Positions 1 through 27,711 of a DNA stretch of 27,711 bases are shown one piece after another. The notes below the pieces were generated by a model, which made no database searches, was not told where the DNA came from, and saw only the letters and a program-made list of their open reading frames with translations. The position numbers and the translations under genes are program-made. Positions within the stretch are counted from its first letter, which is position 1. Every line of letters begins with the position of its first letter. This stretch comes from a virus: positions 1-27,711 of IMG/VR virus record IMGVR_UViG_3300032304_000831; one strand, written 5' to 3'.

Positions 1-471
1 AAAGGTTCTGAGATGTCAGAATCTACTATTAAACTTTGGTTCTTCGCTTTCGCAGCAGCAATGGGTCTTAGTTTAAGTTTATTATTCTATGCATATACTA
101 GTGCAAGTATCGTTACTGCTTTACTTGGAACAACTGTTTCTTTCGGTGCATTGGCTGGATGGGGTTATTTCACTAAACGTGACATCTCAGGATGGGGTCC
201 ATTTTTGTTTGCTGGTGTAATCGGTTTAATCGTTGTTGGCATCATAAACATTTTTGTAGCATCAACAGCATTACAGATGACATTAAATGTATTAGCAATT
301 CTCATTTTCTTAGGTCTTACTGCATATGACATGAATCGTATTCGTGATATGTTTTGGGATGCTTCGCAAGATGAAATCGCACGTATGCAATGGTTTGGTG
401 CGTTAAGTCTTTACATAAACTTCATCAACATTTTCATCAGCATATTACAACTGTTTGGAAACAAGGAATAA
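1..471 (+). CDS. Bax inhibitor-1 (YbhL/YetJ-type) membrane protein, 5' partial
   Basis: This is the C-terminal two thirds of a BI-1 family integral membrane protein. The frame is open to the left edge, and the first ATG inside the window (base 13) corresponds to a position inside the family's usual ~220-230 residues, so the real start probably lies upstream. About five hydrophobic helices are visible. Family landmarks are the AMGLSLS segment, a GYFTKRD loop, NIF before a hydrophobic helix, TAYDMNRI, and the closing LYINFINIF helix. Bacterial members are inner-membrane proteins; E. coli YccA restrains the FtsH protease and B. subtilis YetJ is a pH-dependent calcium leak channel. The Asp in TAYD is kept, but the second acidic position of the last helix (usually LYLDFINLF in YbhL-type members) is Asn here, which may alter ion handling. 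The family is a confident call; its role in the phage is not known. Confidence 0.85.
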   Translation, partial: KGSEMSESTIKLWFFAFAAAMGLSLSLLFYAYTSASIVTALLGTTVSFGALAGWGYFTKRDISGWGPFLFAGVIGLIVVGIINIFVASTALQMTLNVLAILIFLGLTAYDMNRIRDMFWDASQDEIARMQWFGALSLYINFINIFISILQLFGNKE

Positions 472-1118
472 TGGCGCATATAGTAGCAAATTTACCACCA
501 GTAAAATGTTATGTGCGAAGAGAATTCCTTTATGATTTTGAAAAGGGACATGGTGAATTAGAACCATGCTGGTGGATAAGTATAAAGTCACTAAGAGGAC
601 AAGCATTTCGTATTGAATCGTATCTTAATCATTATGGTGCATTATATGATAAGTTGCCACTGCATGCTTATTGTTGGAAACCAATTGATGGAGAACCACT
701 CCCATTAGATTATTTACAGTTATGGGACTGTCTTTCTTATGATATAACAGTTATCAAGAAAGCACAGTTGCAGTCAATGAAGTGTAAATTTAAACTTAAA
801 GATGGGAAATGGATGTATGGAACTTATCTATTCACTGTTGATTCTGCTTCTCCTGACTTTAATATTCTTGATACTGGATTTGCTGAAGATACCGAAGATC
901 ACAAATCTTACAATTTTATTATGTGTGATAATGGGCAGTTCGCTGCTCAACCAAACAATCGTCTTATTATCCTCGAGCCTTCGTCTAATCCTCGGGAATT
1001 GAAAATGCCTGATTTTAAAGTAGCAACAAAACGCTGGTCTGTCGAAAATGAATCCAAGTGGGCACTTGGTGATACAGACACAGTTATGTACGAGAAACGA
1101 GATGAAAACATATCGTAG
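471..1118 (+). CDS. Conserved phage protein of unknown function
   Basis: A 215-residue soluble protein. I chose the ATG at 471 because it overlaps the stop of the preceding gene (TAATG) and gives an N-terminus of the form MAHIVANLPPVKCYVR; the frame is open further upstream, but only over the BI-1 gene. It resembles hypothetical proteins that recur in T4-like aquatic phages, which share a cysteine/tryptophan-rich first half and conserved C-terminal blocks like those here (QPNNR, PDFKVATKRW, SKWALGD). No catalytic motif, signal peptide or membrane segment is evident. It overlaps the next gene by 17 bases, so the two are probably co-translated. No function is proposed. Confidence 0.75.
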   Translation: MAHIVANLPPVKCYVRREFLYDFEKGHGELEPCWWISIKSLRGQAFRIESYLNHYGALYDKLPLHAYCWKPIDGEPLPLDYLQLWDCLSYDITVIKKAQLQSMKCKFKLKDGKWMYGTYLFTVDSASPDFNILDTGFAEDTEDHKSYNFIMCDNGQFAAQPNNRLIILEPSSNPRELKMPDFKVATKRWSVENESKWALGDTDTVMYEKRDENIS

Positions 1119-1896
1119 CATTTTTATTTCTGATGTGCATTTAGGAACTCGTGACTGTCAAGCAGATAAATTAAATAATTTTCTTAAGCATAATACTTGC
1201 GACACACTTTATCTTGTTGGTGATATAATTGATGCGTGGAAGATACAACAGAATAAATGGCGATGGAAACAAAGCCACACTAATGTTGTAAGAAGAATTC
1301 TTGGTCATGCTAAAAGAGGAACAAGAGTTATTTACGTAGCAGGAAATCATGATGAGTTTTTAAGACCAATGATTCCATATGGTTTTTCTTTTGGTTTAAT
1401 CGAAATTAAAAATCAAACAGAGCATGTTGGTGCAGATGGAAAACACTATCTCATAACTCATGGTGATCTATTTGACGGTATTACTCGTCTTGCCCCTTGG
1501 CTTGCGTTTCTTGGCGATAAATTATATGATCTAGTTCTTGATTGGAATTCAAGATTTAATTGGATTCGACATAAACTTGGATTTGGTTATTGGTCGCTAT
1601 CAAAATATTTGAAACATAAAGTAAAAAAAGCATCTGATTTTATGTTTCAATTTGAAAAAAACTTAGCAGCCTATTGCAAGAAACGTGGATATGATGGTGT
1701 TATTTGTGGGCACATACATCACGCTGAAATTAAAGAGATTGATGGAGTGATATATATGAATGATGGTGACTGGGTTGAATCATGTACTGCTCTCGTTGAA
1801 TACTATGATGGTAAATGGGAAATAGTAACATGGACCAAGGAGAATGACAATGTGGTTAATGATGTTAATAGCAGTACACATAAACAACCCGAATGA
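1102..1896 (+). CDS. LpxH-like UDP-2,3-diacylglucosamine diphosphatase (metallophosphoesterase)
   Basis: A 264-residue calcineurin-like phosphoesterase of the LpxH family. LpxH cleaves UDP-2,3-diacylglucosamine to lipid X and UMP in lipid A synthesis at the inner membrane. Metal-binding motifs appear in order: SDVHLG (10-15), GDIID (40-44), GNHDE (81-85), THGD (about 119-122) and GHIHHAEI (about 206-213), followed by NDGDWVESCTA, typical of the proteobacterial ~270-residue form. The ATG at 1102 gives the expected N-terminus immediately before the first motif; a longer reading would only cover the previous gene. It sits directly upstream of a glycosyltransferase and a fatty acid desaturase, supporting a glycolipid or lipid A role. 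In bacteria this subgroup also appears beside glycolipid genes, so the substrate may not be exactly that of LpxH. The family is firm; the substrate is inferred. Confidence 0.82.
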   Translation: MKTYRSIFISDVHLGTRDCQADKLNNFLKHNTCDTLYLVGDIIDAWKIQQNKWRWKQSHTNVVRRILGHAKRGTRVIYVAGNHDEFLRPMIPYGFSFGLIEIKNQTEHVGADGKHYLITHGDLFDGITRLAPWLAFLGDKLYDLVLDWNSRFNWIRHKLGFGYWSLSKYLKHKVKKASDFMFQFEKNLAAYCKKRGYDGVICGHIHHAEIKEIDGVIYMNDGDWVESCTALVEYYDGKWEIVTWTKENDNVVNDVNSSTHKQPE

Positions 1897-2023
1897 CATT
1901 CCAGGAAGAATATCATTACAGTTTCAAACTCAACAACAATGTGAACAAACTCTACAAACAATGACGTATTGGTTAAAGTTTGATCAATTTAAGGTTGAAG
2001 GTAAATGTCAAAAGATAAGTTAG
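1850..2023 (+). CDS. Small two-cysteine protein with N-terminal hydrophobic segment
   Basis: A 57-residue ORF overlapping the end of the LpxH-like gene by 47 bases and the start of the glycosyltransferase by 19, filling what would otherwise be a 108-base gap. It starts MWLMMLIAVHI, a short hydrophobic N-terminus, and continues with a polar, glutamine-rich part holding two cysteines exactly 22 residues apart. The 70-residue protein at 9711-9923 has the same plan: MW plus a hydrophobic start, then QC, then Cys 22 residues later. This makes a real gene family likely. I know of similar tiny proteins in marine T4-like phages without assigned function. The hydrophobic start may be a signal or anchor and the cysteines may pair outside the cytoplasm (inference). 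Confidence 0.6.
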   Translation: MWLMMLIAVHINNPNDIPGRISLQFQTQQQCEQTLQTMTYWLKFDQFKVEGKCQKIS

Positions 2024-2730
2024 AAGAAAAAATTACAATAGTTGTTCCTTGTAAAAATGAGGAAAACTACATTGCGCATTTGTTGATGAATCTGTGTCAG
2101 CAAGAGATAGGTAACACCAGAATTATTATTGCTGACTGCTCTACAGATAATACAAGAGAAGTAATTCAAACAATGAAAGGCGAACTAAATGTTGAAGTCA
2201 TTGAAGGTGGACCAGTTTCTATTGCTAAGAACAATGGAGCAAAACTAGTAACAACCCCATACATTCTATTCATTGATGCTGATGTTCGTTTCTTCAGTAA
2301 TACAGTTATCCGTGATACTGTTTATGAATTAGAAAATAATAATCTAGATCTTATTGGATTGTATGCTAAATGCTATGATAATGATGTTGTTGCTCAAGTT
2401 GGTTTTATGATATTTAATGGTATTAACAACATAATGAAACATTGGGTGCCATTTGCTGTTGGTGCTTATATGTTAACGAGAAAAAGTAAGTTTGAAGAGC
2501 TTGGTGGATTCCCTGCTAAATACGAAACCAGCGAAGATTTTTTTCTCTCTAAAATGTACGATCCGAAAAAATTTAAATTAGTTAAACACCATTTCGGTCA
2601 AGATAGCAGAAGATTTAAAAAGATGGGATATTTTGGAATGGCTTGGTATTTAATTAAAAACTTCTGCAATCGAAATAACGAAAGGTATTGGGATAATATA
2701 GATTATTCCAAATATTGGAATAATAAATGA
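2005..2730 (+). CDS. Glycosyltransferase family 2 (GT-A fold)
   Basis: A 241-residue GT2 enzyme that would transfer a sugar from a nucleotide-sugar donor. The N-terminal Rossmann-like half shows TIVVPCKNEE (11-20), an ADCSTDNT strand/turn (43-50), the SIAKNNGAK segment (72-80) that precedes the donor site in this family, and the metal-binding DAD at 91-93. The acidic TSEDFFLSK segment (about 166-174) fits the catalytic-base region. A moderately hydrophobic region (about 125-155) could associate with the membrane, but no clear C-terminal anchor is seen. Because it lies between an LpxH-like phosphatase and a lipid desaturase, a lipid acceptor such as lipid A or a glycerolipid is plausible; DNA-base glucosylation is less likely given the neighbours. 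It overlaps the desaturase start by four bases (ATGA). Confidence 0.85.
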   Translation: MSKDKLEEKITIVVPCKNEENYIAHLLMNLCQQEIGNTRIIIADCSTDNTREVIQTMKGELNVEVIEGGPVSIAKNNGAKLVTTPYILFIDADVRFFSNTVIRDTVYELENNNLDLIGLYAKCYDNDVVAQVGFMIFNGINNIMKHWVPFAVGAYMLTRKSKFEELGGFPAKYETSEDFFLSKMYDPKKFKLVKHHFGQDSRRFKKMGYFGMAWYLIKNFCNRNNERYWDNIDYSKYWNNK

Positions 2731-3431
2731 TTGAATTTTTATACGTACTGATAATGACACACATAACAATTGTGTGCGTGACTTTATATCTACATAGAGG
2801 ACAAACACATAGAGGATTAGAATTTCATCCAGCATTAAGTCACTTTATGCGTTTCTGGTTGTGGCTTACCACTGGAATGATTACCAAACAATGGGTAGCA
2901 ATACATCGTAAACATCATCAGATGTGCGAGAAACCTGGAGATCCACATTCACCACATGTCTATGGTATATGGCATGTTTTATTCGGAGGAGCATTGTTGT
3001 ATCATGAAGCATCAAAAGATAAAAATATGGTTGATACATATGGTGTTGGTACTCCTGATGATTGGTTGGAGCACAACTTATACAGTCCTCACTCCAGACT
3101 TGGCATTGGCATTCTCCTTGTGCTCAACATAATTGTATTTGGTTGGATTGGTATATTGATGTGGATTGTTCAAATGATTTGGATTCCATTCTGGGCAGCA
3201 GGTGTTATAAATGGTTTGGGGCACTGGTGGGGATATAGAAACACTGACACTAAAGATCGTTCTAGGAATATTTCTATCTTTGGAATAATTATTGGTGGTG
3301 AAGAATTTCACAACAATCATCATGCTGAACCAGCCAATCCTAAATTGAGTAGGAAGTGGTGGGAATTTGATATCGGATGGATGTGGTTTAGAGTATTAGA
3401 AAAATTAAAATTAGCAAGGATAAAACAATAA
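2727..3431 (+). CDS. Membrane fatty acid desaturase (acyl-lipid/acyl-CoA delta-9 type)
   Basis: A 234-residue di-iron membrane desaturase, which would insert a double bond into a fatty acyl chain using O2 and an electron donor. All three histidine boxes are present: HRGQTH (23-28), HRKHH (60-64) and HNNHH (195-199), with the EEFHNNHHAEP context typical of the DesC/OLE1-like class. Hydrophobic stretches flank the boxes (about 5-22, 40-53, 105-140). At 234 residues it is shorter than the usual ~270-300 but complete in all catalytic boxes. It starts inside the ATGA overlap with the glycosyltransferase, so it should be translationally coupled. No partner ferredoxin or cytochrome b5 domain is encoded here, so host electron carriers would be needed. 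Confidence 0.9.
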   Translation: MIEFLYVLIMTHITIVCVTLYLHRGQTHRGLEFHPALSHFMRFWLWLTTGMITKQWVAIHRKHHQMCEKPGDPHSPHVYGIWHVLFGGALLYHEASKDKNMVDTYGVGTPDDWLEHNLYSPHSRLGIGILLVLNIIVFGWIGILMWIVQMIWIPFWAAGVINGLGHWWGYRNTDTKDRSRNISIFGIIIGGEEFHNNHHAEPANPKLSRKWWEFDIGWMWFRVLEKLKLARIKQ

Positions 3432-3582: not shown

Positions 3583-4232
3583 AAGGAATTTGTTTAGTAG
3601 TTGATTATAATACAAATGCAATTCTTGCTCGCACACAATCTGCTAGTTGCGCAGCGCACGTATCTCTTGGTTTGGTCAACACATATTCAACAAACATAGC
3701 AACTGATCTCCCTTGGATTAACAATGCTGTTGCGGAATATGATTTCAATAAAGATCATTTGCGAATGAATTATAGTCGTGATAAAAATGGAAAAGTTCAC
3801 TATGTAATTCCACTTGCAGAAAAATTAAAAACTCCAGAATATTATGAAAGAAAAAGAATAGCAACCATCAGAACAAAGTACATTTATGCGCAAGAAGCGC
3901 ATTATAGGTTATTTTTAAATAGAGTTACTTGTGTTCCTGAACAAATGATGGGTCTATATTCATCGTTGAGTTATGAACTGTTGATTTCTAATGATGATAA
4001 TGGAATATACTCCATAGGAATTTTAGAGTATGCGGAAGTTAGAAATATTACACCAAAAGAAGCATATCATGAATTAAAAATTATGACAGAATCGACAAAT
4101 ACTGCAAACATGAAGTATCTTGGTTGGTACAAAACATTGGTGGAAAATATCAATAAGATGTATGATGAAGATGAAATAAACAATTACGTAAAAAGCGTTT
4201 GGGCAAAATTACATGAGGCATCAGCATTATGA
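3579..4232 (+). CDS. Partner protein of PP-loop cassette 1
   Basis: A 217-residue soluble protein without a recognisable enzymatic motif. It begins with a short beta-like stretch (CLVVDYNTNAIL), then a helical part with many charged residues (TPEYYERKRIATIRTKYIY), and ends with a second conserved block (IGILEYAEVRNITPKEAYHEL, with a following helix). The protein at 5341-5967 matches all three parts (VVD...AIL; TPEYLTRRKLANLRATYIF; VVEYANIQNIDPKTAYQEI), so the two are paralogues. It overlaps the next gene by four bases, implying co-translation with the PP-loop enzyme. The N-terminus lacks the Met-Cys-Gly of AsnB glutaminase domains, so it is not a split glutaminase. An accessory or substrate-presenting role is a guess. 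Confidence 0.7.
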   Translation: MKGICLVVDYNTNAILARTQSASCAAHVSLGLVNTYSTNIATDLPWINNAVAEYDFNKDHLRMNYSRDKNGKVHYVIPLAEKLKTPEYYERKRIATIRTKYIYAQEAHYRLFLNRVTCVPEQMMGLYSSLSYELLISNDDNGIYSIGILEYAEVRNITPKEAYHELKIMTESTNTANMKYLGWYKTLVENINKMYDEDEINNYVKSVWAKLHEASAL

Positions 4233-5341
4233 CTAAACAATTACTTATGGCAAGCACAAGAAGTTTGCAACAATACGATTCGCCAGATGTAAAAACGTGG
4301 TCTTCTATGCATAAAATAGTTCCAGCGAGCGTTTTACTTACTGATAGAACAGGATTCGTCAAACCACCATTCAATATTAAATTATACGATAAATTCAAAA
4401 TGCCGACAGATTTTAGTGAAGAGCTTTCATATGAGCAATGTTGTGAGCGCAGAGCTGTTGAACTTTATGAATTATCTAAAAGAATAAACAAACCATTGCT
4501 CGTCTTTTACTCTGGTGGTATCGATTCAACATTAATGCTAATTACGTTTTTGAAAGTTATTCCAGAAAATGATAGAGAAAGACTTATTGTTGCTATGGAT
4601 TGGGACAGTATAAAAGAGTATCCACTGTTTTTCGAAAAACACATTCGTGGCAAATTAAAAACATTGCACAGTGCTGCATTTGATTTGTATTTTACAAAAG
4701 AATATATTATTCTTGGTGGTGAGTTTAATGATCAATTGATGGGCACTGATGTTGTTGTAAAAATACAAAATATTTTTTCTTTTGATTTAATTAAAGAAAG
4801 ATATACCAGACAAAACATTACTGATTTTTATGTCGCAATGGGAATGGAAAGATCACGAGCAAATCACTGGTTTGATTTAATTGATGGCTGTTGCAAAAAC
4901 GCACCAATTCCTATTGTTACTGTATTTGATTATTTGTGGTGGTTTAATTTTAATTTCAAGTGGCAATCTGTATTTTTTAGAATGCTAATGCGTTGTCGTT
5001 CTAATATGCAACATACAATCAATCAAGAGTTTGTCGATACATACTACCAACATTTTTATGGAGAAGACTATTTTCAAATATGGAGTATGAAAAACCAGCA
5101 TTTAAAGATAAGAGATGAGTGGCAAACTTATAAGTTTCATGCTAAAGACCTAATTTTAGACTATACAAAAGATAATGATTATTACCAATCAAAAGTTAAA
5201 GTTGGAAGTCTTTATAAATTATTTACATTAAGAAGAACACCAAGAGCATTGACAACTGACTACGAATTTATTTATGATTTGAACGCAGAAGATTTTTATG
5301 TATCAGAAAATGATTATTGGCCATTACCATCAAGTGAATAA
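4229..5341 (+). CDS. Asparagine-synthetase-like PP-loop ATPase, cassette 1
   Basis: A 370-residue enzyme carrying the N-type ATP pyrophosphatase signature SGGIDS at 95-100 after a hydrophobic strand (LLVFY) and before STLMLITFLKV, as in the synthetase domain of class B asparagine synthetases, beta-lactam synthetases and lasso-peptide cyclases. A second block, GGEFNDQLMGTD (about 162-173), corresponds to the acidic motif after the nucleotide site in that superfamily. The N-terminal ~90 residues are not a glutaminase domain. Such enzymes adenylate a carboxylate and couple it to an amine. The C-terminal half (WWFNFNFKW, INQEFVDTYY, FQIWSMKN, KFHAKD) is shared with the paralogues at 5975 and 20733. 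Substrate unknown; tRNA or nucleotide modification by a PP-loop enzyme is an alternative. Confidence 0.75.
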   Translation: MTKQLLMASTRSLQQYDSPDVKTWSSMHKIVPASVLLTDRTGFVKPPFNIKLYDKFKMPTDFSEELSYEQCCERRAVELYELSKRINKPLLVFYSGGIDSTLMLITFLKVIPENDRERLIVAMDWDSIKEYPLFFEKHIRGKLKTLHSAAFDLYFTKEYIILGGEFNDQLMGTDVVVKIQNIFSFDLIKERYTRQNITDFYVAMGMERSRANHWFDLIDGCCKNAPIPIVTVFDYLWWFNFNFKWQSVFFRMLMRCRSNMQHTINQEFVDTYYQHFYGEDYFQIWSMKNQHLKIRDEWQTYKFHAKDLILDYTKDNDYYQSKVKVGSLYKLFTLRRTPRALTTDYEFIYDLNAEDFYVSENDYWPLPSSE

Positions 5342-5974: not shown

Positions 5975-7072
5975 ATGACAGAGTTATATCTTGCTAATGC
6001 GCAGAAATTGAAAAATGAATCTAATGCTGGCGCAGCAGAATGGCTAGACATACACAATTTTATTAATGTAAATGTCTGCCTTGTTGATCGTTCACAAAAT
6101 TTAAAATTACCATATAAATTTAAATTATATGGTAAATTTAAAATGCCAACCGACATATCTTCTCCATTAACATATGAAGAATGTTGTGAACGCAGAGCAT
6201 TAGAATTGTATAAAAAATCTAAACTACTTAATTTACCATTGTATGTGTTTTATTCTGGTGGTATTGACTCAACACTTGTTTTAATTTCTCTACTGAAAGT
6301 GATACCTGAACATGATTGGATGAGAATCGTTGTTGTTATGTCTTTGGATAGCATCCGAGAATTTCCAGAGTTTTATTACAATCACATTCGTGGTAAACTA
6401 GAAATAGTTTCTAGCGAAAACATGTCTGCGTTTTTCAATAAACAATGTTTAATTGTTGGTGGTGAGCATAATGATCAGTTATTTGGCACAGATGTAATCT
6501 CAAATCTGCAAAGCAAAATACCATTCGAAACTGTGTTCAAGAAATATGACAAAGATACTATCATGAAGTATTTTATTGAACACAAAATGACAGAAAAGAG
6601 TTCAGAAATTTGGTATGACATTGTTCATGATAATGCATCAAAAGCACCATGCGAAATACAAACAGTTCATGATTTCTTTTGGTGGTTGAATTTTAATTTT
6701 AAATGGCAAGCTGTTTTCTTTAGGATGTTATTGCGTGTTGACAAACAGTATCGCCATTTAATCAATCAAGAGTTTGTTGATACATATTTTCATCATTTCT
6801 ACAGCGAAGATTATTTTCAAGTTTGGGCAATGACAAATAAACATTTGAAAATAAAAGACAGCTGGGACTCTTATAAGTTTCACGCAAAAGAACTCATATA
6901 CAATTACACTGGTCATAAAGAATATCGTGACCATAAACAAAAAGCAAACAGTTTACATAAACTGTTCATCGCTAAAGACACTCCTGTTGCATTGACCTCT
7001 GACTACAAATACCTATATAAAGTTGATACGAACGAATTATATGTTCCTGACAATGACTTTATAAGGGATTAG
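5975..7072 (+). CDS. Asparagine-synthetase-like PP-loop ATPase, cassette 2
   Basis: A 365-residue close paralogue of the enzyme at 4229-5341. SGGIDS lies at 94-99, GGEHNDQLFGTD at about 161-172, and shared blocks include YEECCERRALELY, NHIRGKL, WWLNFNFKWQAVFFRML, INQEFVDTYFHHFY and FHAKEL. Retention of the ATP-binding and acidic motifs in both tandem copies argues that both are active rather than one being a decaying duplicate. The two probably differ in substrate, since the sequence just after the PP-loop differs. A perfect 11-base inverted repeat lies inside the gene at 6107-6135. Reaction type (adenylation followed by amide bond formation) is inferred from the superfamily. Confidence 0.75.
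   Translation: MTELYLANAQKLKNESNAGAAEWLDIHNFINVNVCLVDRSQNLKLPYKFKLYGKFKMPTDISSPLTYEECCERRALELYKKSKLLNLPLYVFYSGGIDSTLVLISLLKVIPEHDWMRIVVVMSLDSIREFPEFYYNHIRGKLEIVSSENMSAFFNKQCLIVGGEHNDQLFGTDVISNLQSKIPFETVFKKYDKDTIMKYFIEHKMTEKSSEIWYDIVHDNASKAPCEIQTVHDFFWWLNFNFKWQAVFFRMLLRVDKQYRHLINQEFVDTYFHHFYSEDYFQVWAMTNKHLKIKDSWDSYKFHAKELIYNYTGHKEYRDHKQKANSLHKLFIAKDTPVALTSDYKYLYKVDTNELYVPDNDFIRD
6107..6135. repeat. Perfect 11-bp inverted repeat with 7-base loop
   Basis: TTACCATATAA (6107-6117) is followed by ATTTAAA and then its exact reverse complement TTATATGGTAA (6125-6135). It lies about 130 bases into the second PP-loop gene, in codons for a PYKFKLYGK stretch. The matching stretch of the first paralogue does not form it. 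It could fold as an mRNA hairpin, but it may also be a by-product of AT-rich coding sequence. Confidence 0.6.
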
Positions 7073-20057: not shown

Positions 20058-20746
20058 GCGATAACGATGAAATAAATTTACTTGATGATTATCGTGTAAT
20101 ATTTAATTTAATTTCTCTAAAAGCAAAGAATCTTCATGCTGTTTTGTGTAAAGAAACAGGTAGGATTGTTTGTTTTACTAATTGGTTCCAGACTGCGAAA
20201 GAAATAGAATGTGATCCATCATTAAGAGCTTGGTATTTTATCAATCATACCAAACTTATTCCAAGCAACGTAAATCTAAACACACCATATGAAGTTGTCT
20301 TTGATAACATCACTGGCGCATTCTTTGTCAAAGAAATAACTCAGGAAGAAGTAAATAGATTTATTGTCATAAGCGAAAAGGCTGCAGTTTTAGATACTAT
20401 TCACAGAACAATAAGTGAAGAACATGATTATATTCGTTCAGATCTTTCGTTACAAGAGCATGTTTATCAAAAGAAATATGAAGAAGCGTTAGAGGTGATT
20501 AGTGGTGGGTTTGATAGAGAGAAACACATCTACATTTGTTTTGAATCGAACGAAAAAAATATCAATCCAGTAAAATTAGCAAGAGCAATCATTGATAAAA
20601 GAAACTTCGCAGAATCTAAATTGTTTCATATGGAACAGCTTCGTGTAAAATACACAAATATGTTGAAACAATGTAATAATTTACTTAAAGTAAATGAGAT
20701 TTTAGACGAGTTTAATAGAGAGTCAAGTATATATGGCAGATTCTAA
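20054..20746 (+). CDS. Partner protein of PP-loop cassette 3 (diverged)
   Basis: A 230-residue acidic, mostly helical protein. I start it at the ATG in the ATGA overlap (20054) rather than the ATG four codons earlier. It occupies the same position (just before a PP-loop gene) and has similar size and order of secondary structure to the partners at 3579 and 5341. Faint matches are HAVLCKETGRIV at the start and HIYICFESNEKNINPVKLARAI, which lines up with the YSIGILEYAEVRNITPKEAYHEL block. Sequence identity is low, so homology is plausible but not proven. It overlaps the PP-loop gene by 14 bases. Confidence 0.62.
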   Translation: MSDNDEINLLDDYRVIFNLISLKAKNLHAVLCKETGRIVCFTNWFQTAKEIECDPSLRAWYFINHTKLIPSNVNLNTPYEVVFDNITGAFFVKEITQEEVNRFIVISEKAAVLDTIHRTISEEHDYIRSDLSLQEHVYQKKYEEALEVISGGFDREKHIYICFESNEKNINPVKLARAIIDKRNFAESKLFHMEQLRVKYTNMLKQCNNLLKVNEILDEFNRESSIYGRF

Positions 20747-21893
20747 ATTCATCTATGTCAACACAAGTAAATTGTTTGTTGCCAAAACACACAAAGAGAT
20801 TCCGTCTTTTAAACCATTGAAAAGAACCAGATTGCTCAGTGATGAGAGATATAATGAAATTCCAGGAATTGATTTATACAAGAAGTTCTCATATTATTTT
20901 GGGAATAATATTGTTTCCATTGATAGAACAAACACAATCATAACTCCATTTAAAACAACATTAGCAACTTTCCTTTCCATGCCAGAATATGAAAAGCAAG
21001 ATCTTTCTTATTCTGAATGCTGCGATAACAGAGCAAAGGAACTGTTGTCATTCGATAAGACATTGTATGTTATGTATAGTGGTGGCATTGACAGCACCAC
21101 AATGCTTTCGGCACTACTGAACAATTCAACAAAGAATCAACAAAAGAAAATAAATGTTTTATTGTCTAACGAAAGCATAATCAATAATCAGAAATTTTAT
21201 GATGACATTATATGTGGAAATTTGAAAACAATTCCTTCTTATGATTTTGTCAAATATATTGGGTTCGATCAAGAAAGTATTTTTGTAACAGCAGAAAACA
21301 ATGATGAAATATTTGGCACAAATCTAGTATCTTCTTTTATACATAGATATGACTTTGACATTCTATTTGAAGAACCAACAGTTTCCAATTTGTTTAAGGT
21401 TTTAGAAAAGAGAACGATTATTTCTTCAGAAGAAGAAAAAAGAGATATGAGAAAATGTATTGATCTTATGTTGTTAGTAGCAGAAAAATCTCCAGTAATT
21501 CTAGATACAATTTACAAATTATTTTGGTGGTTAAATTTTAGTTTAATGTGGAATGTTTCTTACACAAGATTACTTGGATTTGTTAAATACAAAACATATC
21601 CAGAGTGTAACTTTCATTCTTTCTTCTCAACAAAAGAATTTCAATTATGGTCAATGAATAATGTTGATAATCTAATTGGAGATAATTGGAAGTCAGCAAA
21701 ACAACATGCAAAAGACTATATAAATGACTATCACAAAAATGAACACTACAGAGTTTCCGCTGTGCCAGGAAGCAATCTTAGTAATATTTGTTATAACAAA
21801 CCTGCACCATTTGCCATTGGAACTGATATGATCAAGTGGAACATTGAAGATAGCATTGACCATTTTATTGAGCCAAACAATTCATTCCTATGA
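20733..21893 (+). CDS. Asparagine-synthetase-like PP-loop ATPase, cassette 3
   Basis: A 386-residue diverged paralogue of the enzymes at 4229 and 5975. YSGGIDSTTM (near residue 115-124) is the ATP pyrophosphatase loop and ENNDEIFGTN (near 189-198) the second acidic motif; other shared pieces are YSECCDNRAKEL, WWLNFSLMW, FQLWSMNN and AKDYINDY. Like the others it has no glutaminase domain. Its start lies inside the partner gene and its stop overlaps the cupin gene (ATGA), so partner, enzyme and cupin should be co-translated. The N-terminal ~95 residues differ most between copies and may set specificity. Substrate unknown. Confidence 0.74.
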   Translation: MADSKFIYVNTSKLFVAKTHKEIPSFKPLKRTRLLSDERYNEIPGIDLYKKFSYYFGNNIVSIDRTNTIITPFKTTLATFLSMPEYEKQDLSYSECCDNRAKELLSFDKTLYVMYSGGIDSTTMLSALLNNSTKNQQKKINVLLSNESIINNQKFYDDIICGNLKTIPSYDFVKYIGFDQESIFVTAENNDEIFGTNLVSSFIHRYDFDILFEEPTVSNLFKVLEKRTIISSEEEKRDMRKCIDLMLLVAEKSPVILDTIYKLFWWLNFSLMWNVSYTRLLGFVKYKTYPECNFHSFFSTKEFQLWSMNNVDNLIGDNWKSAKQHAKDYINDYHKNEHYRVSAVPGSNLSNICYNKPAPFAIGTDMIKWNIEDSIDHFIEPNNSFL

Positions 21894-26333: not shown

Positions 26334-26909
26334 ATGAAAACTGTTGGAGAAAAACTTGAGCCATTCGTGGTAACTGGTGTTAAGCCAGGAGCATTGACAC
26401 CTGATGATGCTTTTGAATCAATTAATGAGGGTTCTTTTGGTGGTAAATGGAAAGTAATTGTATTTTATCCTAAAGATTTCACTTTCGTGTGTCCAACTGA
26501 AATTGTTGCGTATGATAAGTTGAATCAGGATTTCGCTGATCGTGATGCTGTTCTTTTGATTGGTAGTACAGATAACGAATTCTGTAAATTAGCATGGCGT
26601 GCTGCACATGAAGATCTAAAGAAAACAAACAGCTGGATGTTTGCTGATACCATTCGTGATGGTCTGTGGGATGAACATAATGACAAGTATCGTAGTGGTC
26701 TTGCTGAACAACTTGGTGTTTTCTACGAACCAGCAGGTGCTGCTTTGCGTGCAACATTTATTGTTGACCCAGCTAATGAGATTCAACATGTGACTGTGAA
26801 CAACTTGAATGTTGGTCGCAATCCAGAAGAAACTCTACGTATTCTTGATGCTCTTCAGACTGGAGAACTCTGCGCATGTAATCGTAAAGTTGGTGGAGAA
26901 ACACTATAA
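26334..26909 (+). CDS. ahpC: AhpC-type peroxiredoxin
   Basis: A 191-residue 2-Cys peroxiredoxin that reduces hydrogen peroxide, organic peroxides and peroxynitrite. The PxxxTxxC motif is P46-K-D-F-T50-F-V-C53, the peroxidatic cysteine. The conserved Arg lies in ALRATFIVDP (about 134-143). The C-terminus is GELCACNRK, with cysteines at 180 and 182, the pattern of actinobacterial-type AhpC (three cysteines) that works with AhpD rather than AhpF. Length is full for the family. The next gene, starting at its stop (TAATG), encodes AhpD, which supports the pairing. All catalytic residues are intact, so an active enzyme is expected. Peroxiredoxins are rare in phages. Confidence 0.95.
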   Translation: MKTVGEKLEPFVVTGVKPGALTPDDAFESINEGSFGGKWKVIVFYPKDFTFVCPTEIVAYDKLNQDFADRDAVLLIGSTDNEFCKLAWRAAHEDLKKTNSWMFADTIRDGLWDEHNDKYRSGLAEQLGVFYEPAGAALRATFIVDPANEIQHVTVNNLNVGRNPEETLRILDALQTGELCACNRKVGGETL

Positions 26910-27415
26910 TGGCATTCATTGACACAGTCAAAGAAGCATTGCCAGACTATGCAAAAGACACCAAGTTAAATCTTGATGCTGTCCTTTTGCGTAGTACATT
27001 ACCTGTTGATGAAGCGATGGGTTGTGCTGTCGCTGCATTAGCTGCAACTGGCAATGGTAAATTACTAGCTGTATTACTTGCTGACGCACCTGCTGATGCA
27101 TCTGCTGCAATGACTGCTGCAAGTTTAATGGCACAGAACAATGTATGGTATCCATATGTTGAGATGGCTGATGATGAATCACTCAAAGGACTACCTGCAC
27201 AATTGCGTATGAATGCGATTGCGACACATGGTGGAACTACGAAAGAGAGATTCGAATCGTATTCTCTTGCTGCAAGTATTGTTGGTAAGTGTCACTTCTG
27301 CGTAAAGGCACACTACGATGGGTTGAAGAAAATGGGTTACTCTGTAGAACAACTTCGTGATATTGGTCGTATTGCTTCAGTGATGAATGCATGTGCAAAA
27401 GTGCTAAATAGTTAG
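26909..27415 (+). CDS. ahpD: AhpD alkylhydroperoxidase/reductase
   Basis: A 168-residue all-alpha AhpD protein. Family landmarks: ALPDYAKDTKLNL at the N-terminus, NNVWYPYVEM, LRMNAIATHGG, and the active site GKCHFCVKAH with Cys 128 and 131 and His 135; Glu 116 (RFESYS) also aligns with the proton-relay Glu of the M. tuberculosis enzyme. AhpD reduces oxidised AhpC using electrons from lipoyl proteins and dihydrolipoamide dehydrogenase, which the phage would have to borrow from the host. It begins on the last base of the ahpC stop. The alanine-rich stretch (LAVLLADAPADASAAM) is normal for the family. Confidence 0.93.
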   Translation: MAFIDTVKEALPDYAKDTKLNLDAVLLRSTLPVDEAMGCAVAALAATGNGKLLAVLLADAPADASAAMTAASLMAQNNVWYPYVEMADDESLKGLPAQLRMNAIATHGGTTKERFESYSLAASIVGKCHFCVKAHYDGLKKMGYSVEQLRDIGRIASVMNACAKVLNS

Positions 27416-27519
27416 TATGGATGAAACAGAATTAAAACTTAGAGAAATGTATATACAGACTGCGAAGTTTATTGTTGCGTTTATACGAGCAAGACACTTC
27501 GGACACTGTTAATATTGTT

Positions 27520-27711
27520 GTAATCCCTTCAAAGAGAAGGTGTTCTGGACGGGAGTTCGATTCTCCCCACCTCCACCATAAGGAAATTATTTGAGTGAAA
27601 GTATTCCGTTGTTCAAAGTTTCTTTATGATGGGGGTGTACTTGGTTTCGACAGGGCAAGATATCGGAGACGGCAACATGGTAGGCGACTACTGGTTTGGG
27701 TGTAGACCGAA
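27520..27711 (+). ncRNA. ssrA: Circularly permuted (two-piece) tmRNA, 3' partial
   Basis: The tRNA-like end of a tmRNA comes first. T-stem GGGAG/CTCCC (27551-27555 and 27563-27567) encloses a TTCGATT loop; CACCTCC (27568-27574) is the 3' acceptor strand, followed by an encoded ACCA (27575-27578). The 5' end of the mature RNA lies downstream: GGGGGTG (27631-27637) pairs with CACCTCC over seven base pairs, including a third-position G-U pair, the alanine identity element. It is followed by TACTTGGTTTCGACAGGG, the degenerate D-arm sequence of tmRNAs. CAGGGCA (27651-27657) can pair with TGTTCTG (27541-27547), as helix P2 requires. A small hairpin CCTTC/GAAGG sits at 27526-27540. The tag-coding part and the end of the coding piece lie beyond the window; the 5' boundary of the acceptor piece is approximate. 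Confidence 0.9.
27579..27630 (+). other. Intervening segment of permuted tmRNA precursor
   Basis: The 52 bases between the encoded CCA end of the acceptor piece and the 5' G of the coding piece. In permuted tmRNA genes this linker is removed by processing, leaving two RNAs held by base pairing. It is AT-rich with no long helix that I can see. Confidence 0.75.

Follow-up and report, generated by a model that had tools for sequence, protein, structure and literature searches.

A circularly permuted tmRNA gene at the end of a phage contig, and probable small protein genes in the spacers of its relatives

The viral stretch analysed here (IMG/VR record IMGVR_UViG_3300032304_000831, positions 1 to 27,711; hereafter the window, which is the whole 27,711-nt record) ends in a segment in which the acceptor part of a tRNA-like domain precedes its 5' part, and raises the questions of whether this is a permuted tmRNA gene, what its spacer (the intervening segment) represents, and whether the arrangement identifies the host. 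The covariance-model search proposed in a preliminary description of the sequence (cmscan) matched two Rfam families above their gathering scores: RF01850 (beta_tmRNA; 27477-27711, 99.0 bits, gathering score 84, E 3.2e-29, 3' end truncated) and RF04321 (tmRNA_permuted; 27516-27693, 98.2 bits, gathering score 47, E 3e-18); at a lax threshold these two were again the only families found near the tmRNA. RNAfold of positions 27516-27700 formed the T-arm, acceptor stem, P2 and outer helix together; the 3' (T-arm/CCA) piece comes first, followed by the 5' piece, and the acceptor strands pair 7/7 across the 52-nt spacer (Table 1). In positions 27516-27711, this freshwater-type phage carries the tRNA-like part of a tmRNA gene of the betaproteobacterial type that is circularly permuted (two-piece) and runs off the contig end. 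The preliminary description had claimed such a phage-encoded gene, with a 52-base linker, a 7-bp acceptor stem with G3-U70, CCA, T-arm and P2 pairing, and all of these features were recovered. Only 81 nt of the 5' piece are present before the record ends, and the tag and pseudoknots fall beyond position 27711; ARAGORN called no tmRNA in the window, presumably a result of this truncation.

Table 1. Features of the permuted tmRNA gene and its upstream neighbors in the window.
Feature	Positions	Strand	Basis or remark
AhpC/peroxiredoxin gene	26334..26909	+	
AhpD-like (CMD family) gene, directly upstream of tmRNA	26909..27415	+	
31-aa ORF MDETELKLREMYIQTAKFIVAFIRARHFGHC between AhpD and tmRNA	27417..27512	+	also aligned in L043
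3' piece of permuted tmRNA	27516..27578	+	RF01850, RF04321, helix pairing, RNAfold
Outer helix strand TGTTG	27516-27520	+	
P2 strand of 3' piece, TGTTCTG	27541-27547	+	
T-arm	27551-27567	+	T-stem 5/5
Acceptor 3' strand CACCTCC	27568-27574	+	
Discriminator A (A73)	27575	+	
Encoded CCA	27576-27578	+	
Spacer of tmRNA precursor, 52 nt	27579..27630	+	RNAfold, alignment to L043
Shine-Dalgarno-like AAGGA, directly after CCA, inside closing stem	27580..27584	+	same position precedes ATG in L043
12-codon TTG ORF (SESIPLFKVSL*), C-terminal remnant	27591..27629	+	alignment to L043 64-aa spacer protein
5' piece of permuted tmRNA, to start of mRNA-like part	27631..27711	+	cmscan; cut at 3' by contig end before tag
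Acceptor 5' strand GGGGGTG	27631-27637	+	7/7 pairs, G3-U70
D-loop-like GGTTTCGA	within 27631..27711	+	
P2 strand of 5' piece, CAGGGCA	27651-27657	+	7/7 pairs

The order AhpC-AhpD-tmRNA is common to the window and three relatives, L043, L025 and L026. In these relatives the tmRNAs are complete and have the tags ANDEVYALAA and ANDELFAIAA, with an Ala resume codon and a hydrophobic end in AA; L043 and the window share about 90% DNA identity over long stretches. In the alignment, the L043 spacer equals the window spacer plus 156 nt (52 codons), 208 nt in all, and is laid out as TAAGGAAATTTA-ATG...TGA-T, with a Shine-Dalgarno sequence right after CCA and a 64-codon ORF whose stop codon lies 1 nt before GGGGGTG. 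The window retains both spacer ends and the last 12 codons (LSESIPLFKVSL*), with one synonymous difference in the shared part, and its TGA (27627-27629) also lies 1 nt ahead of the acceptor 5' strand. Judged from this alignment, the 12-codon ORF is the C-terminal remnant of a 64-aa spacer protein of the L043 type. Since LSE(S/G)IPLFK is also found in free-standing homologs of this protein, the window shows loss of the gene and not its gain. Two marks of the spacer-gene class, a Shine-Dalgarno sequence after CCA and a stop codon at the spacer end, are present in the window; the third, an ATG ORF of at least 18 aa that fills the spacer, is replaced by 12 codons without any ATG, and the window spacer is for this reason assigned to the class as a remnant, not as an intact member.

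The P2 strands read UGUUCUG/CAGGGCA in the window versus CAUGUUG/CAGCGUG in L043 and L025, with 7/7 positions paired in both versions, a compensatory change across the spacer. The 3' pieces of L043 and L025 are identical at 62 of 63 bases and their AhpC-AhpD neighbors are the same; their spacer proteins are unrelated, a 64-aa soluble protein in L043 and a 23-aa membrane peptide in L025.

The spacer ORFs of viral permuted tmRNAs were surveyed by a structural search over all fetched loci (7-bp acceptor, T-stem and GGTTTCGAC-like motif), which yielded 242 viral permuted tmRNAs with 174 distinct spacers; false hits of the relaxed spacer finder in tRNA arrays were removed prior to the statistics. 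A nested ORF was defined as one of 18 aa or more with its ATG no more than 20 nt from CCA and its end no more than 20 nt from the spacer end. Such ORFs occupied 43 of the 174 distinct spacers versus a mean of 7.3 in shuffled interiors, a count that is not to be read as a frequency, since two locus scans had selected AAGGAG/AAGGAA after CCA and one had sought the 64-aa protein. In U-rich DNA, chance alone can produce short hydrophobic ORFs, about 7 of the 43 at the 18-aa cut-off; with a minimum length of 30 aa, 23 ORFs were observed versus 0.9 expected from the shuffles of the 174 spacers, and with a minimum of 45 aa, 15 versus 0.05. Within the subset of loci not chosen by spacer sequence, 23 of 138 spacers were coding, and a Shine-Dalgarno-like motif was present in 14 of these 23 versus 7 of the 115 non-coding spacers (p = 1e-8). 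Most nested ORFs (36 of 43) stop exactly at a TGA followed by T, 1 nt before the acceptor strand; as a caveat, a TGA ahead of the acceptor strand was found in non-coding spacers too, so that the stop position alone proves nothing. A permissive clustering, which may have merged some short ORFs, gives about 20 families, among them single-pass membrane peptides of about 22-27 aa (e.g., MNDNLGSLAIGVVVVLVVFALVLL), a Cys-rich type of 30 aa, and soluble proteins of 40-80 aa; pN/pS in the membrane-peptide families, with the last four codons excluded, was mostly 0.1-0.6.

Several further features were observed among these loci. In L141 and L200, the frame of a Cys-rich spacer ORF (CPTCF...KHKC) continues beyond the spacer end into the 5' piece of the tmRNA, and processing would therefore leave this ORF without a stop codon. 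In L087, a tRNA-Arg(ccg) was called inside the permuted-tmRNA spacer (2721-2795) within an 11-bp closing stem (CTAAGTATTTT/AAAATACTTAG), a tRNA cargo in the same slot. Finally, the phage permuted tmRNAs of L098, L067, L051, L029 and L085 have very long predicted tags (27-31 aa, e.g., ANADTFDFSAMSFTGNTVSGKSKVALAA), one of which ends in EALAV and not in AA.

The 64-aa protein is the best documented spacer-borne family. It occurs in the spacers of tmRNAs with four different acceptors (GGGGGTG, GGGCCTG, GGGTCGG and GGGGGCG), and its pN/pS of 0.09-0.33, again with the last four codons excluded, indicates that the spacer-borne family is under purifying selection. Homologs with different C-termini stand free, outside any tmRNA, in L362-L366, where they adjoin genes for a clamp-loader-like AAA ATPase (L363) and an SbcD-like phosphoesterase (L362). 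Searches of Pfam and PHROG with the 64-aa protein returned no family at significance; its AlphaFold model, of moderate confidence (pLDDT 77), had no match in the PDB at E<=0.001, and its best viral match was an uncharacterised protein (E 7.6e-5). Neither the 64-aa protein nor a 62-aa spacer protein was found among isolate phages.

The two ends of the window spacer form a closing stem of -7.6 kcal/mol (TAAGGAAATT/AGTTTCTTTA). In coding spacers the ends pair at -7.7 kcal/mol versus -3.1 in shuffled ends, and in non-coding spacers the ends pair more strongly still. The spacer DNA end GTTTC(C/T)TTATGAT pairs with TAAGGAA at the spacer start, and in the folds of the window, L043 and L052 the Shine-Dalgarno sequence lies inside this stem. 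The need for GTTTCYTTATGAT to pair with TAAGGAA gives unrelated spacer proteins a common C-terminus, V-S-L; the conserved stem and the TGAT end are probably older features of the RNA that the genes have exploited.

The preliminary description had also taken the permuted form to point to the host lineage, and this part did not hold. Permuted tmRNAs are present in phages isolated on Stenotrophomonas (Moby, DLP6 and QDWS359), Xanthomonas (Rb1, X1 and XacN1) and Pseudomonas (SM1), all of them Gammaproteobacteria with an ordinary one-piece tmRNA; permuted tmRNAs were also parsed or called in phages isolated on Achromobacter and Alcaligenes. Within the order Burkholderiales, the RF01850 cut-off was passed in 4 of 150 sampled genomes. 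Inference of the host from the permuted form was rejected on account of the gammaproteobacterial isolate phages and the low Burkholderiales count. The tmRNA of Melnitz, a phage of OM43, is of the alphaproteobacterial type (PMC9004378). Among 31 parsed bacterial loci with permuted tmRNAs of the alpha and beta types, none had a nested ORF; the spacers were 22-88 nt long and non-coding. The count of 31 includes some overlapping loci twice, and in two loci the spacer is one that also occurs in phages. An origin from a bacterial tmRNA was sought by exact T-arm match and likewise rejected: 11 bacterial loci matched, and those that could be parsed had hairpin spacers unrelated to that of the window. 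In one of them, L119, the spacer hairpin also occurs in phages. Loci L121-L127, on contigs of metagenome-assembled genomes of Kaiserbacteria, Paceibacterota, Cloacimonadota and other Patescibacteria, have the exact 33-nt T-arm/acceptor sequence in common; they were not parsed as permuted, and are possibly one-piece tmRNAs or phage contigs.

Other genes of the window deserve mention in their own right. The AhpC-AhpD pair (26334-27415) sits in a phage; at least 592 relatives of the AhpD protein were found among viral contigs, but the isolate-phage collection gave none. The 31-aa ORF that follows AhpD is conserved in L043 and is partly covered by the leader in the RF01850 alignment. Three paralogous proteins of 365-386 aa (4229-5341, 5975-7072 and 20733-21893) have a PP-loop-like motif, YSGGIDST, and an upstream partner ORF of about 210-235 aa each; in Pfam they gave no match or a very weak one (PF01171). 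Positions 1-3431 hold envelope and lipid genes in a phage: a Bax1-I family protein, an LpxH-like phosphoesterase, a family 2 glycosyltransferase and a fatty acid desaturase.

Taken together, the window ends in a phage permuted tmRNA gene whose spacer is very probably a gene-carrying slot in its relatives, the gene having been lost in the window itself. The precursor would be transcribed together with the AhpC-AhpD operon and fold into the tRNA-like domain; by analogy with the family, tRNA-processing enzymes of the host would release the spacer by cleaving behind CCA and ahead of the acceptor 5' strand, and the resulting two-piece tmRNA would act with host SmpB in ribosome rescue. It is plausible that the phage in this way keeps ribosome rescue going during infection. 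The removed spacer would serve in many relatives as a slot for a small protein gene whose Shine-Dalgarno sequence sits beside CCA and whose stop codon sits at the opposite end; pairing of the two spacer ends would form a stem that joins the tRNA halves and conceals the ribosome site. The ORF is likely translated from the nascent or the excised precursor. In the window, a deletion of 156 nt has removed the gene and kept the stem and the last 12 codons.

Two other readings were considered. The gene could be an ordinary permuted tmRNA with a plain non-coding hairpin spacer kept for its stem, the ORFs of the relatives being chance readings; by the same test 131 of the 174 distinct viral spacers and all 31 bacterial ones are non-coding, and non-coding spacers also have the TGAT end and the closing stem. 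This reading is nevertheless very improbable, given 15 ORFs of at least 45 aa where 0.05 are expected, and is already contradicted by the pN/pS of the 64-aa family and by its homologs outside any tmRNA. That the window tmRNA is a decaying pseudogene, its spacer gene broken and more damage lying behind the contig break, would fit the truncated ORF and a 3' part located beyond the record; yet the visible tRNA-like helices are intact (acceptor 7/7, T-stem 5/5, P2 7/7), the P2 changes relative to L043 preserve pairing and the closing stem has outlived the deletion, all of which makes decay hardly likely.

A further reading goes beyond the preferred one, a gene-carrying slot emptied in the window, and joins spacer ORF and tmRNA into one regulatory unit, in which the peptide would be made only if tmRNA maturation or function lags, as a backup of the ArfA type. 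ArfA is encoded by a truncated message under tmRNA control, and the spacer genes resemble it in being short ORFs whose message would end at or near the stop codon after RNase cleavage. The stem would hide the Shine-Dalgarno sequence, and RNase P cleavage would end the message at or before the stop codon; the position of the Shine-Dalgarno sequence in the three folds, the stop codon 1 nt from the cleavage site in 36 of 43 ORFs and the L141/L200 type of frame that overruns this site are consistent with it. However, the sole role of the pairing may be to join the halves, no sequence likeness to ArfA was seen in the spacer proteins and most of their families are unrelated to one another, so that a regulatory unit of this kind is rather unlikely. 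The coupling of translation to tmRNA maturation, suggested by a Shine-Dalgarno sequence inside the stem and cleavage at the stop codon, is speculative; an exchangeable protein-gene cassette coupled in this manner, whose cleaved message would be a client of the same tmRNA and whose peptide would report on or back up ribosome rescue, is a doubtful extension of the same idea.

Permuted tmRNAs in phages are already published: a count over 18,146 phage genomes gave 53 two-piece forms, of which 50 came from marine or aquatic phages (PMC9004378), and a 2025 database lists 97,179 tmRNAs, of which 11,946 are permuted and 79 come from phages (PMC11915505). The window agrees with RF01850 and RF04321 in piece order and helices, and with the virulent aquatic OM43 methylophage Melnitz in carrying a permuted ssrA in a phage; Melnitz differs in the glutamine riboswitch that accompanies its alphaproteobacterial-type tmRNA, and no spacer protein gene was found in the passages on its tmRNA (PMC9004378). 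No Rfam match to a glutamine riboswitch was obtained near the window tmRNA, even at the lax threshold. Unlike the short, non-coding spacers of the parsed bacterial loci, phage spacers reach 273 nt and may hold genes. A comparable case is the tmRNA interrupted by a group I intron, some of which carry homing-endonuclease genes: there, too, a protein gene can reside in a part of the tmRNA gene that is later removed, but the intron is self-splicing and lies in the T-loop of a one-piece gene (PMC11915505), whereas the phage segment is a permuted-gene spacer that would be released by tRNA-processing cuts and holds small non-endonuclease ORFs. A published nesting is that of a tRNA-Ala, described as unique, within the spacer of a single permuted tmRNA, GCA-2688965; it occupies the same slot but is a tRNA gene, a nesting similar to that of the tRNA-Arg(ccg) of L087, and on intervening sequences the database paper, in the passages retrieved, mentions this tRNA-Ala and one repeat (PMC11915505). 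Protein genes in the permuted-tmRNA spacer of many related phages appear to be new, and no report of them was found in the open-licence PMC literature.

The window tmRNA itself is a known kind of phage gene, and its permuted form is unusable for host inference. Its relatives indicate that the removed spacer of a structural RNA gene is a home for protein genes across many phages, and that an RNA stem dictates the last residues (V-S-L) of the spacer proteins and encloses their ribosome site. The location within an RNA gene may well cause gene callers to overlook about 20 small protein families. Ribosome rescue and the small proteins of phages, two separate fields, are thereby linked, and the question is raised whether the permuted tmRNA precursor may also be a messenger RNA.
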